Below, piece by piece: positions 8,330 to 47,098 of a DNA stretch of 47,098 nt (the stretch's first letter is position 1; every line of letters begins with the position of its first letter). The translations under genes and the position numbers were made by a program. Source of the stretch: Candidatus Fimicola merdigallinarum (GTDB lineage: Bacteria; Bacillota; Clostridia; Lachnospirales; Anaerotignaceae); NCBI GenBank assembly GCA_017694425.1, contig JADIMX010000128.1, positions 1-47,098 on the forward strand. The letters are read 5' to 3'. The notes below the pieces were generated by a model, which was not told the DNA's origin, made no database searches, and saw nothing but the letters and a program-made list of their open reading frames with translations.

Positions 8330-8616
8330 ATAAAAAAGCCCTTCATCTCAATATATAGAGATGAAAGGCATAATATCACTTCCACGGTACCACTCTTATT
8401 TACTCCTAATGGAGTACCCTCAATAAGATACTTGAAAAAAATCGCATATCCTGTTCCTGTAACGGTGAACCTCCGTCATAGCCTATAATTACCTTTCAGC
8501 TAGCCACTCCAAGGCGAGTTCAATTCAATCTGAAATACTGTCTTTCACCAACCGACAGCTCTCTGAATTTCGTTATGAATTTACTATTCCTTTTCATAGT
8601 GTTTTGCGTAATGTAT
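8330..8616 (-). promoter_or_regulatory. Leucine T-box leader (CUC specifier)
   Basis: Read on the minus strand, the leader has the Stem I signature AGAGAGCTGTCGGTTGGTG, a specifier-loop segment TTGAACTCGCC with CTC (8518-8516, Leu) in the expected place, and the conserved T-box GAGTGGTACCGTGG (8382-8395) that pairs with the uncharged tRNA acceptor end. A terminator hairpin follows. Uncharged tRNA-Leu would stabilise the antiterminator and allow leuACDB transcription; this is the established mechanism of the family. The Leu specifier agrees with the downstream genes. Confidence 0.93.
8332..8369 (-). terminator. T-box terminator of the leu leader
   Basis: GCCTTTCATCTC (8369-8358) and GAGATGAAGGGC (8349-8338) form a 12-base stem followed by TTTTTTA on the minus strand. 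It lies directly after the T-box motif and is the alternative to the antiterminator. Confidence 0.9.
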
Positions 8617-17714: not shown

Positions 17715-17900
17715 ATCTATAAATCTTGTTTCATTCCCTGTTCTGTGAGTCCGATTTTGAAAACTGTAACAGTCATCTACTTTCGTTTGATATAACTCTC
17801 CGAGGGCGTAAATTCGGATACAACGCTTCCTACATATTAACATTATCTTGTCAATGATATTATGCTAATTTATATTTTGAAAGATTAATACTTGCATTTA
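17715..17900 (-). ncRNA. Candidate TnpB guide (omega/reRNA) region
   Basis: In TnpB elements the guide RNA scaffold overlaps the tnpB 3' end and runs to the right end. Here about 150 non-coding bases after the tnpB stop are markedly more GC-rich than the flanks and contain a structured-looking stretch (TTACGCCCTCGGAGAGTT ... GGACTCACAGAACAGGGA) that fits this. The guide would be the bases just beyond the right end. Boundaries and folding were not computed. Confidence 0.45.
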
Positions 17901-18972
17901 AATCTCTATCAATAATAAGTCCACATTTGCATTTATAAACTCTATCTTTGAGTTTTAAATCCTTCTTAATCTCTCCACATCGACTACAAGTCTTACTTGA
18001 TGGATAAAATCTATCTGCTATTACTAACTCAATTCCTCTAAATTTACACTTATACTCAAGTTGCCTTTTAAACTCATAGAAACATTGTTTTCTTATAGAA
18101 TCAGATAAATGTTTATTTTTCATCATACCTTTTACGTTTAAATCTTCTATTACAACTCTGTATGGTTTGGTTTTCACTATACTCGTTGTAGTTTGATGAA
18201 GATAATTATTTCTTATATTAGCCAATCTTCTATGCACTTGTTGTATCTGTTTTTCAAGCTTTATAATACTTTTAGTTTTGACATACTCCTTTCCTTTTTT
18301 ATTTTGTTCATATTTTCTACTTACTTGCTTTTGTAATCTTTTTAATCTCTTTTCGATTTTTCTAACTACATAAGTTTTATTAATATTTTTATAAACCATA
18401 CCATCAGAACATATTGCTAAATCCTTTAAACCTAAGTCAATTCCTAATGATACGTCTGTTAATTTTTCTTTAATTTCTTCTTTCTCTATACCTACTGATA
18501 TATACCAATATTTATTATCATAACTTATTCTTGGATTGCTATATCTAACTCCAATCGGTATCTGTTCTTTTATCTTTATCCAACCAACTTTTTCAATATT
18601 GACATACCCATTTTTTACTTTTAGTTTTACATTATCATTGTAAAATGATTTCTTACTTTTTCTTTTACTCTTAAACTTAGGCTTATCAGATAAACCTTTA
18701 AAGAATCTTTTATATGCATTACAAGCATCTTTAACTGCTTGCTTTGCTACATTGTTAGATACCTCACTTAGCCAATTTAACTCAGATTTCTTTAGTACGG
18801 TTAATTCTTTTCTAAGAACTCTGTCTGATATAAACTTTCCACCATTTTTATAATTTTCTTCTTGCCTTGCAAGTGTCCAATTATATATAAACCTTGCAGT
18901 ACCTACTGATTTCCATAACTTTTCTTCTTGTAACTCATTTGTATATAGTCTAACTTTCTTCGCAAGTATCAT
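17860..18972 (-). CDS. tnpB: TnpB RNA-guided nuclease (transposon-associated)
   Basis: A full-length 370-residue TnpB. It shows the N-terminal helix-turn-helix region (ARFIYNWTLARQEENYK), RuvC-I SLGIDLGLKDLA (Asp179), RuvC-II VVIEDLNVKGMM (Glu276), the zinc ribbon CSRCGE ... CKCG (329-350) and RuvC-III RDLNASINL (Asp357). All three acidic residues are present, so it is probably active. Characterised TnpB proteins cut DNA next to the target-adjacent motif and help keep the element. Base use is more AT-rich than its neighbours, consistent with transfer. The start ATG has AGGAG 11 bases upstream. Confidence 0.95.
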   Translation of the reverse strand: MILAKKVRLYTNELQEEKLWKSVGTARFIYNWTLARQEENYKNGGKFISDRVLRKELTVLKKSELNWLSEVSNNVAKQAVKDACNAYKRFFKGLSDKPKFKSKRKSKKSFYNDNVKLKVKNGYVNIEKVGWIKIKEQIPIGVRYSNPRISYDNKYWYISVGIEKEEIKEKLTDVSLGIDLGLKDLAICSDGMVYKNINKTYVVRKIEKRLKRLQKQVSRKYEQNKKGKEYVKTKSIIKLEKQIQQVHRRLANIRNNYLHQTTTSIVKTKPYRVVIEDLNVKGMMKNKHLSDSIRKQCFYEFKRQLEYKCKFRGIELVIADRFYPSSKTCSRCGEIKKDLKLKDRVYKCKCGLIIDRDLNASINLSKYKLA

Positions 18973-21124: not shown

Positions 21125-21940
21125 ATGTTTTATGTATTTAATTTAAGAAAATTTTTAAAGATAGCTTGTGTATATGTAGTTTTGGGATTAGTTTTAAATA
21201 CTGGATTTAACTATTTTTTAAGCAGTAATACAAAAAGTGTTATGGCAGATAAAAAGGTTTATATTGCCATAGTTATAGACGACTTTGGCTATTCCGGAGA
21301 GGGTACAGAGGATATGATAAACTTGCCTATAGTTTTTACAGGGGCTGTTATGCCTTTTTCTGAAAATTCTAAGGATAATGCCGAAAAGCTTATAAGTGCA
21401 GGTAAGGAAACTATTGTACATATGCCTATGGAGAGTTTGACTGGTAAGAAAAGTTGGGTTGGAGATAGAGGCATATTTTTAGATATGAAAGATGAGTACA
21501 TAAGAAAGAATGTAAATGATGCCTTTGATATAGTTGTAGGTGCTAAAGGTCTTAATAATCATATGGGTTCTGCAATTATGGAGGATAAAAGAACTCTCTC
21601 GGCTGTTTTAGATACTGTGGAAGAAAAGGGATTATATTTTTTAGATAGTGTAACTACACCTAATTCAAAGGCAGAGGAAATTTGTAAGGATAAAAATATA
21701 ACCATATTTAAGAGAGATGTTTTTTTAGATAGTACTGATGACGAGAATAAAGTTAAAGAAAATCTTTTAAAGGCAGAGAAGGTGGCAAATGAGAAAGGCT
21801 ACGCTATTGCCATAGGTCACGTTGGGCCAGATGGTGGAAATGTTACAGTAAATGCTATAAAAAATTTGTATAGTGAAATGGAAAGTAGAGGGGTAGAGTT
21901 TGTTACATTAAGCCAGCTTGAAAAGGTTATAAAAAATTAG
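21125..21940 (+). CDS. Divergent polysaccharide deacetylase (YibQ/DUF610-like), exported
   Basis: A 271-residue protein with an N-terminal membrane anchor or signal (IACVYVVLGLVLNTGF) and a NodB-like fold of the divergent type: IAIVIDDFGYSG, TIVHMPMESL, GLNNHMGSAI, LYFLDSVTTP and AIAIGHVGPDGGNVTV. In this family a zinc site (Asp-Asp, His, His) is largely kept. Probably envelope-facing, acting on a polysaccharide or related polymer. Start as listed; the ribosome site lies within a hairpin. Confidence 0.82.
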   Translation: MFYVFNLRKFLKIACVYVVLGLVLNTGFNYFLSSNTKSVMADKKVYIAIVIDDFGYSGEGTEDMINLPIVFTGAVMPFSENSKDNAEKLISAGKETIVHMPMESLTGKKSWVGDRGIFLDMKDEYIRKNVNDAFDIVVGAKGLNNHMGSAIMEDKRTLSAVLDTVEEKGLYFLDSVTTPNSKAEEICKDKNITIFKRDVFLDSTDDENKVKENLLKAEKVANEKGYAIAIGHVGPDGGNVTVNAIKNLYSEMESRGVEFVTLSQLEKVIKN

Positions 21941-22006
21941 TTTTAAAAATATGTTTTTTAAAAAAAGTAATGTATTTTTTTAGAAAGGTTAACATATTAA
22001 TATAAG

Positions 22007-22157
22007 TTATCAACATTATACACAGATTTATCCACAGAAAAACAATATATTGTGTGTAGAAATAACTTGTCATACAATATTAAGTTATTAAGGAATTTAA
22101 AGGATAATTCGTTTATTATCAACATAAGTGTAGATAAATATTAAAAAATGTTGATAA
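22007..22157. other. Cluster of DnaA-box-like 9-mers
   Basis: Within 151 bases of intergenic DNA are two perfect TTATNCACA boxes, TTATACACA (22016-22024) and TTATCCACA (22028-22036), and three TTATCAACA near-boxes at 22007-22015, 22116-22124 and 22149-22157 (minus strand). The flank before them is almost pure A/T. The density is far above what is expected by chance. It could be a replication origin, a DnaA-titrating cluster or a DnaA-regulated promoter. No dnaA or dnaN gene is in the window. Confidence 0.6.
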
Positions 22158-22182
22158 CTTATGAACATTTGGGCATAAACTT

Positions 22183-22218
22183 AAAAACCCGTTGGAGCTT
22201 TTTCTCTAACGGGTTTTT
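22183..22218. terminator. Bidirectional terminator between yibQ-like gene and recU
   Basis: AAAAACCCGTT and AACGGGTTTTT form an 11-base stem with T/A tails on both sides. The right arm includes the last codons and stop of recU (minus strand), so the stop lies within the hairpin. Confidence 0.85.
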
Positions 22219-22733
22219 AAATACTCATTTACTGCCTCAAGATAGTTTATTGTGCCATTTTTTGTATTCAATTTATACTTTTTTTCAAAGGCATCATAGG
22301 GTATAGATTTTCTGCCACCATTTAAGGCATTTTCCCAATATTCCTTTAAAACTTCAAAGGGCAGAAAGTAAATCTCGTTTAAACTTGAAAAGTTTACAAG
22401 AAGAAAGGCTACACCTTGTTGTTTTATAAAGTCCTCCATAAATTCTAGCTGGTGACTGTGAATATTCTGTATAGGCAGGTGTTTTTTTGCCGTTTCCTTT
22501 GCGTCAAAGCATATAGGTATGCCTTGAACTGCGCCTATATAGTCAACAGTACTCTGTTTTTCAAAGTAGGCAAGTGTTATGGTATGTTTTTTATTATCAA
22601 CTTCTATTGGTGTTATAGGTGTTGGTATTTTCTGTATAAGTGCTATATTTTTCTGTCTGTAAATATCATTTGAAAAGTTTATAAGGTCCTCAAAGCCACT
22701 TCCTCTAAGACCTCTTGAATTCCAGTAACCCAA
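22206..22733 (-). CDS. recU: Holliday junction resolvase RecU
   Basis: A 175-residue Firmicute-type resolvase that cuts four-way DNA junctions in recombination and chromosome segregation. Recognisable regions are NSRGLRGSGFEDLINFSNDIYR, IQKIPTPITPIEV, the nuclease core STVDYIGAVQGIPICFDAKET (Asp, Asp/Glu-X-Lys) and HSHQLEFMEDFIKQQGVAFLLVNF. The length is close to B. subtilis RecU without its long N-terminal tail. It stands alone, convergent with the deacetylase gene; in many Firmicutes recU is beside a penicillin-binding protein gene, which is not the case here. Confidence 0.9.
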   Translation of the reverse strand: MGYWNSRGLRGSGFEDLINFSNDIYRQKNIALIQKIPTPITPIEVDNKKHTITLAYFEKQSTVDYIGAVQGIPICFDAKETAKKHLPIQNIHSHQLEFMEDFIKQQGVAFLLVNFSSLNEIYFLPFEVLKEYWENALNGGRKSIPYDAFEKKYKLNTKNGTINYLEAVNEYLKTR

Positions 22734-26079: not shown

Positions 26080-27843
26080 TTATAAAGCAATAAATTTTTC
26101 AATATCTCTTTTTACTATATCAAGTGATGAACGCCAAAATTCCGGTTTTGATATATCTATGCCTACACTTAAAGCCACAGTTTTTAAATCACCTTTGCCT
26201 GTATTTTTGAGAAGATTTTTGTATACTTGCGGGAAAGTATCAGGATTTTTTTCGTATAAGGCATATAATCCTTTTGCAAGTAAAAGACCGAAAGCATATG
26301 GGAAGTTATAGTAATTGTATCCTGCATCGTAGTAGTGTGGCTTGCAAACCCACATATATTTGTGCATATAATCACTATCAAGACCACTACCGTAAGTTTT
26401 TCTCTGAGCATCAAGCATTATTTCGCAAAGCTCATCAACTGATAAAGGTCCATTCTTTCTCATTTCAAAAACTGTGTCTTCAAAAATGAAACGGCTTAAT
26501 ATATCGACTATAACCTGTGAGCTGTCCTGTAAATCTGTTTCAAGTATCATAAGAGCAGTTTCTTTGTCGGCTTTCTCTAAGGCTGAAGTTTTTACTATTG
26601 TTTCGCAGAATGTGGAGGCAGTTTCAGCTATAGGCATAGGATAGTCGCTATTTAAAAATGTTTCGGTGTCAAGACACTCACCGTGGTACCCGTGACCTAG
26701 TTCGTGGGCAAGAGTTATAACATCACTAAAGCTACCTGTAAAGTTTGTAAGTATACGGCTTTCCTTTATGCTGTGGATATTGTCGCAGAAAGCTCCACCA
26801 CGCTTACCTTCTTTTGGGTACACGTCAATCCATCTTTCTTCATAGGCTTTCTTTGCATAATCTCCAAGGTCTTTTGAAAATTTGCTAAAGTTTTCTATTA
26901 CAAAATCCATAGCCTCCTCATATGTGAAAGTAATATCTGTTTTTCCCATAGGTGCGAAAAGGTCGTAAAATGGAAGTCCGTTTTTATGCCCTAACATTTC
27001 AGCTTTTTTAATGAAATACTTCTCAAAGTTTGGTAAGTATTCTTTCATAGCTGTAATCATAGCTTTAAGTGTTTCCATATCAAGACCGGAATTTCTTATG
27101 GTCATATCAAGAGGTGATGTGTATCCTCTCATTTCACACTCAGTTATAACCTGTCCTTTTATAGAGTTTAAACAGTAGGCTGAGGACTGTTCTATTTTTT
27201 TGTAGGATTCTATCTCCCTTTCATATGCCTTTTTTCTTTCCTCTTTATTGCTAGAGTATGCCATATTTCTAACTTCAGCAAGAGGAATGTTTTTTCCGTC
27301 TATATCTACTGTGTGGCTTGAAGTTTCTGCCTCCCATAGCTTTTCCCAACTAGAAGACCCTGTAATTTTAAATTTTGATATTAATTCCTCTTCTGCCTCT
27401 GAAAGGCTATACTTTGCGTTATCTAATATATTTTTTATAAAGTAGCTATGCTCTTTTATAAGCTCTGATTCTTTTGAAACTTCATCAATATTAAGGTCTA
27501 AACTTGAAAGCCATTTACTGAATTTTGTTTCAGGCACAGCTATTTTTGTAAAAATATTTTCTATATAATCTGCTATTTTTAAAGCCTTACTATTTTTAGA
27601 GTCTGTGGCAAGTGTTAAGTTTGCAAAACTTGAAAGACTAGTTACTACATCACCTAAACTATTCTGTAAGTTTATATATTTTTCTATTTTTTCAATAGCA
27701 TTGTCACCGTTTGAAAGTTCTTTTTCTGAAAATTTTATAATATCATTTATTATAAATTCAAATTTGGCTAAGTCTTCTTTGAATTTAGGGCTTTCAAAGT
27801 CTGTGTAAAGTTTTGAAAGATTCCATTCGTATTTATTTTCCAT
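26080..27843 (-). CDS. pepF: Oligoendopeptidase F (M3 family)
   Basis: A 587-residue cytosolic zinc peptidase that degrades oligopeptides. The zinc site is ITLAHELGHGYHGECL (HExxH), with the downstream Glu in PIAETASTFCETIV. The family N-terminal helical region begins WNLSKLYTDFESPKF, and the C-terminal GLLLAKGLYALYE is typical. It is monocistronic on the minus strand, with its own terminator. Confidence 0.93.
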   Translation of the reverse strand: MENKYEWNLSKLYTDFESPKFKEDLAKFEFIINDIIKFSEKELSNGDNAIEKIEKYINLQNSLGDVVTSLSSFANLTLATDSKNSKALKIADYIENIFTKIAVPETKFSKWLSSLDLNIDEVSKESELIKEHSYFIKNILDNAKYSLSEAEEELISKFKITGSSSWEKLWEAETSSHTVDIDGKNIPLAEVRNMAYSSNKEERKKAYEREIESYKKIEQSSAYCLNSIKGQVITECEMRGYTSPLDMTIRNSGLDMETLKAMITAMKEYLPNFEKYFIKKAEMLGHKNGLPFYDLFAPMGKTDITFTYEEAMDFVIENFSKFSKDLGDYAKKAYEERWIDVYPKEGKRGGAFCDNIHSIKESRILTNFTGSFSDVITLAHELGHGYHGECLDTETFLNSDYPMPIAETASTFCETIVKTSALEKADKETALMILETDLQDSSQVIVDILSRFIFEDTVFEMRKNGPLSVDELCEIMLDAQRKTYGSGLDSDYMHKYMWVCKPHYYDAGYNYYNFPYAFGLLLAKGLYALYEKNPDTFPQVYKNLLKNTGKGDLKTVALSVGIDISKPEFWRSSLDIVKRDIEKFIAL

Positions 27844-41302: not shown

Positions 41303-41530
41303 TAAGTTAATAAATTGCGTTGATGAAAAGGAGTAGTACTGTGTATACTTAAAGAGAGCTGACGGTTGGTGTAAGTCGGTAGTTAAGCAGTATGAAGGCG
41401 TTTCGGAGCATTTTTCTATGAGAGGGCATATATTTTTATGTGTCAAAGAGGGTGGAACCGCGGAAGTTAATGGCTTTCGTCCCTTACAATATATTTTTGT
41501 TGTAATGGGATTGAGGGCTTTTTTTATTTT
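41303..41530 (+). promoter_or_regulatory. Glycine T-box leader (GGC specifier)
   Basis: Stem I signature AGAGAGCTGACGGTTGGTGTAA, a specifier segment TATGAAGGCGTTT with GGC (41397-41399, Gly) and the T-box GAGGGTGGAACCGCG (41448-41462). It precedes glyS, so uncharged tRNA-Gly would turn on glycyl-tRNA synthetase. It is shorter than the leucine leader, as is common for glycine T-boxes that lack part of Stems II/IIA. Confidence 0.94.
41472..41527 (+). terminator. T-box terminator before glyS
   Basis: CCCTTACAA pairs with TTGTAATGGG (one bulge), extended by GCTTTCGT against GATTGAGGGC, and followed by TTTTTTT. It is the terminator alternative to the antiterminator formed by the T-box. Confidence 0.85.
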
Positions 41531-46770: not shown

Positions 46771-46913
46771 AACTATGTTTAAAATAGTTCTTTTACTTAA
46801 TATAATATTTTCAAAATATATTGTAATAGTGTGTTGGTAATAGTATAATTATGACATATACATATGAAAAACAAAGGTTTTTAAATATTTTTAAATTTTT
46901 TTCAAAAAAAGTG

Positions 46914-46941
46914 TTGACATAGTTTTGAATATGTGTATAAT
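46914..46941 (+). promoter_or_regulatory. Strong promoter P1 (stable-RNA type)
   Basis: Consensus TTGACA (46914-46919), a 16-base spacer and consensus TATAAT (46936-46941). The downstream sequence CGTGACCGGC...GCCGACACGAAAC resembles that after P2. Confidence 0.85.
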
Positions 46942-47019
46942 AAATATTCGTGACCGGCAAACAAAAGCCGACACGAAACATCAAAAAAATAAGTTTTAAA
47001 AAAGAATTTAAAAAAGTTC

Positions 47020-47047
47020 TTGACAAACTAAAAAAACCTGATATAAT
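47020..47047 (+). promoter_or_regulatory. Strong promoter P2 (stable-RNA type)
   Basis: Consensus TTGACA (47020-47025), a 16-base spacer and TATAAT (47042-47047) with an extended -10 (TGA before it). It is followed by CGTGACTGCG...AGCCGTTAAAAC, similar to the region after P1. Tandem consensus promoters 106 bases apart near no ORF suggest an rRNA operon beginning beyond the window. Confidence 0.85.
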
Positions 47048-47098
47048 GAATAAACGTGACTGCGAAATGTAAGTAACAGCCGTTAAAACATTAAAAGG

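Follow-up and report, generated by a model that had tools for sequence, protein, structure and literature searches.

A conserved DnaA-box cluster outside the replication origin, between a polysaccharide deacetylase gene and recU, as a candidate DnaA-titration site in Candidatus Fimicola merdigallinarum

The window analyzed here, a stretch of 47,098 nt, corresponds to C152, one of the 168 contigs of an incomplete assembly. Near its middle, a divergent polysaccharide deacetylase gene (21125–21940, plus strand) and recU, which encodes a Holliday-junction resolvase (22206–22733, minus strand), run towards each other and leave a gap of 265 bases (21941–22205), in which a cluster of DnaA boxes is located. 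A tldD/pmbA pair follows beyond recU. Both flanking genes terminate at the cluster, with their 3′ ends facing it, and no promoter-bearing 5′ end of a neighbor is directed towards it. At about 22181–22220 there is a hairpin of 17 bp, accompanied by A and T runs (−23.3 kcal/mol, z −8.9), which, judged from its sequence, can terminate transcription of both convergent genes, deacetylase and recU. Since this hairpin is on the right side of the boxes, the deacetylase transcript probably reads through them.

DnaA boxes were scanned across the whole window as matches to TTATNCACA with at most one mismatch. This gave 90 matches, nine of which fall inside 22007–22178, making these 172 bases the densest spot of the window. 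When the window was shuffled 300 times with dinucleotides preserved, the richest segment of that length held only 2–4 boxes, and 5000 shuffles of the 265-base gap gave a mean of 0.7 boxes and a maximum of 6, so the observed density is not explained by chance. A dense cluster of five boxes at 22007–22157 had been claimed from the sequence-only reading; it is real and was understated, as this interval contains two perfect boxes (22016 and 22028) and five with one mismatch. The neighboring A/T-rich stretch that had also been claimed is present to the left of the boxes (21941–22000, up to 90% A+T), with 90% A+T at about 21927–21976.

The left part of the cluster is a core triple, TTATCAACA-TTATACACA-GAT-TTATCCACA (22007–22036, plus strand), in which the three boxes at 22007, 22016, and 22028 all point in the same direction and start 9 and 12 bases apart. 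It is adjoined by a conserved block with the near-palindrome ACAATATATTGT (22037–22056), which, judged from its sequence, is a candidate site for a second protein. The remaining boxes, each with one mismatch, are TTCTACACA (22053–22061, minus strand), TTATCAACA (22116–22124, plus strand), TTATCTACA (22129–22137, minus strand), a further TTATCAACA (22149–22157, minus strand), and two more at 22159–22178, namely TTATGAACA on the plus strand at 22159 and TTATGCCCA on the minus strand at 22170. Because the Nextera sequence CTGTCTCTTATACACA resembles a DnaA box, the window was checked for it as a source of the boxes, and none was present. Nextera adapter does occur at two other contig ends of the same assembly (C13:1-51 and C58:2-39).

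Conservation of the cluster was assessed in three congeners: the present genome, Tyzzerella sp. An114 (G001; recU contig matched to NZ_NFLT01000009.1), and an uncultured Clostridia bacterium (G002; CALWGF010000015.1). A box cluster lies in the same deacetylase/recU gap of both G001 and G002, and the spacing of the core triple is identical in them. The boxes at 22007, 22028, and 22116 are unchanged in all three congeners, and that at 22016 is kept in all three, with the fifth and last bases altered in the G001 copy. The box at 22053 reads TTATACACA in G002 and is lost in G001, and that at 22149 is kept in G002. The ACAATATATTGT block is likewise conserved throughout the three. Three-way identity reaches 83–87% over the core of about 60 bp (about 22000–22058), compared with mostly 23–57% in the rest of the gap. 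That the core is far more conserved than its flanks suggests, at the level of sequence, that the boxes are under selection.

The recU loci examined in other genomes of the family and order, together with other named RecU loci, had no comparable cluster, and the idea that the cluster is a general companion of recU was therefore rejected. In G047 and at L072, recU and the deacetylase gene are co-directional. It appears from this comparison that recU was turned round in the present genus and that the cluster occupies the resulting gap between two 3′ ends.

The absence of such a cluster at the recU loci examined elsewhere in the family also bears on whether it could be a site of DnaA-dependent transcription control for recU or the deacetylase gene. 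DnaA acts as a transcription factor at several loci of B. subtilis (PMC4447404), and RecU is a DNA-repair protein, two points in favor of such control. However, it is the 3′ ends of both genes that face the cluster, the hairpin terminator stands between the cluster and recU, and promoter-like matches in the cluster region were no commoner than in shuffles. We therefore regard transcription control as improbable, although an antisense or read-through effect is conceivable.

A replication origin was one of the two functions proposed by the sequence-only reading, and the nine boxes beside an A/T-rich stretch, with mostly plus-strand genes to the right, count in its favor. The bipartite oriC of Bacillus and clostridia also combines DnaA-box clusters with A/T-rich DNA (compare PMC7561715), but the recU locus differs from it in having no dnaA, no DnaA-trio, and no skew switch. 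In G001 and G002, dnaA is found on other contigs, with one box cluster before dnaA and another between dnaA and dnaN, and the 10-kb GC skew changes sign at dnaA. Between dnaA and dnaN, both congeners have DnaA-trio-type runs beside a G/C run; these were read in the printed sequence, as the trio search pattern left them unscored because of one odd triplet. In the recU gap, by contrast, there is no DnaA-trio after a G/C run; the gap contains just one A-rich run (TAAAAAAAGTAA, at about 21959).

GC skew shows no switch at the cluster. On either side of it, in the window as well as in G001, genes of the plus strand have positive third-codon-position skew and those of the minus strand negative skew, and the polarity is mirrored in G002, where the contig is reversed. 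The same polarity on both sides means that one strand is leading throughout. In the present genome, rpmH starts contig C13 and dnaN starts C146, both other contigs than that of the cluster, and these contigs break where dnaA, which is unassembled, would be expected. The gene order in Firmicutes is rpmH-dnaA-dnaN, and this would place the organism's own oriC in the gap between C13 and C146. The cluster, flanked by the deacetylase gene and recU rather than by dnaA and dnaN, lies outside oriC, and it is extremely unlikely to serve as the origin of the chromosome or as an additional active one.

The change of gene orientation that had been noted in this area holds in outline, although recU and an oligopeptidase-F gene (26080–27843) on the right side are on the minus strand. 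Probable rRNA promoters had been placed 25 kb to the right; two tandem promoter-like sites are indeed present at about 46910 and 47020 (within 46903–47050, at the contig end), but the window contains no rRNA. In each of the three congeneric assemblies, the corresponding point is near a contig end, and together with the tandem sites this fits an rRNA operon just beyond the end of the contig. Elsewhere in the window, an IS605-type OrfB/TnpB gene (17734–18972, minus strand) is followed immediately by a match to RAGATH-18 RNA, which may be the guide RNA of this element and overlaps the start listed for a T2SSF-like gene, which belongs to a pilus-type operon. Two T-box leaders were also observed (8354–8606, minus strand; 41311–41487, plus strand).

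The chromosomal position of the cluster was approached through G047, a genome of the same family and another genus that is assembled as a single contig (3.12 Mb) on which dnaA lies at base 101. There, the deacetylase-recU-tldD-tldD block is found 288 kb from dnaA, with a glgB-like gene and the genes after it in the same order. If this order holds in the present genome, the cluster would lie in the first fifth of one replichore.

The recU gap is not the only place outside the origin where boxes are grouped. A second cluster in the present genome lies between hpf and a macro-domain gene (C138:7961-8031, L171), with a triple spaced 12 and 9 bases apart, and is closely matched in G002 (C4:42600-42629, L122). 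Smaller groups of boxes occur on C94, where they precede a dnaD-dnaI-like operon, and on C13, close to a parB/noc-like gene. A dense DnaA-box cluster also stands at the end of a contig that carries phage-like genes (C79:18031-18196, L118).

That phage-like contig indicates that local mobile elements carry boxes, and the recU cluster could accordingly be the relic of an inserted replicon, such as a plasmid or phage origin. The site has no replication or mobility gene, however, and its core is conserved between species even though the flanking gap has diverged, so that we consider this origin of the cluster very unlikely.

The core-triple pattern was found in 17 of the 392 genomes of the order, and its reversed control in none (0/392). 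Eight of the sites are located just after murC, seven of these between murC and a dnaD-like gene, which shows that this spacing recurs as an architecture and is not confined to recU. Among the dnaD loci examined outside the family, 9 of 11 had at least four boxes within 250 bases; the 19 examined in other genomes inside the family each had at most three. In Lachnospirales outside the family, a dnaD-like gene is often preceded by a box cluster, which in several cases directly follows murC. Cluster loci of this kind are L129 and L131–L136 (murC-dnaD), L127 (murC-tdk), and L140–L147 and L153 (dnaD). Inside the family, no cluster was seen at the dnaD loci examined, but clusters do lie beside murC in G007 and G017. 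Clusters were also observed after parA-parB and a third gene, at L068 (G035:C17:15209-15238) and in G047 (L170:18113-18222), the latter about 18 kb from dnaA.

Taken as a whole, the recU cluster is a real, selected-looking DnaA-box cluster outside the origin, of a type already known from other bacteria. The titration role that had been suggested as the alternative to an origin fits its anatomy and its conservation in the three congeners; it stands as a candidate site, at which binding of DnaA is predicted from the boxes. We consider it probable that this non-coding cluster titrates DnaA from an origin-proximal position, in the manner of the DnaA-box clusters (DBCs) of B. subtilis. DnaA would assemble on the core triple and then spread to the weaker boxes. 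As the cluster would be in the origin-proximal part of one replichore, its duplication would follow initiation closely, and the additional copies would withdraw DnaA and thereby delay the next initiation. Such an effect on initiation timing is presumed by analogy with B. subtilis (PMC13220808).

The DBCs of B. subtilis likewise bring several boxes together within a short stretch of intergenic DNA away from oriC, and are described as oriC-proximal in the title of Okumura (2012). They have other neighboring genes, and the likeness concerns the grouping of the boxes and their location. The closest known system is the gcp/ydiF cluster, which lies between two 3′ ends (PMC4447404), as does the cluster between recU and the deacetylase gene. 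In E. coli, datA is also a non-coding cluster of DnaA boxes that lies outside oriC and downstream of genes and limits initiation, as is proposed here, but it requires IHF and stimulates ATP hydrolysis by DnaA. DARS1 and DARS2 of E. coli are intergenic and have a core of three DnaA boxes with fixed spacing (PMC5742627); their box I faces boxes II and III, whereas the core boxes of the recU cluster share one direction.

Both datA and DARS change the nucleotide state of DnaA with the aid of partner proteins (PMC5742627), and the recU cluster could go beyond titration in a comparable manner if a complex with a second protein at ACAATATATTGT altered the nucleotide state of DnaA. In favor of this, all three congeners retain the palindrome-like block next to the triple, and datA, which needs a partner protein, is located downstream of genes as well (PMC5742627). 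On the other hand, no partner protein is known, B. subtilis is without datA and DARS (PMC13220808), and the uniform direction of the boxes in the triple is unlike the DARS core. We hence regard such an activity as unlikely. A related proposal, in which the triple, ACAATATATTGT, and a second protein would constitute a dedicated control complex, a clostridial counterpart of datA or DARS that arose in this genus in the gap left by the recU inversion, is offered as a speculative idea with a small chance of being correct.

Most tests of DnaA-box clusters outside the origin have been made in E. coli, B. subtilis, and Streptomyces. The three congeners share a fixed cluster site, and other genera of the family and order have clusters beside parB, murC, and dnaD. 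It suggests that such clusters are retained but move to other positions during evolution. These bacteria therefore offer a natural comparison for whether the number, position, or architecture of the clusters matters to the timing of initiation.
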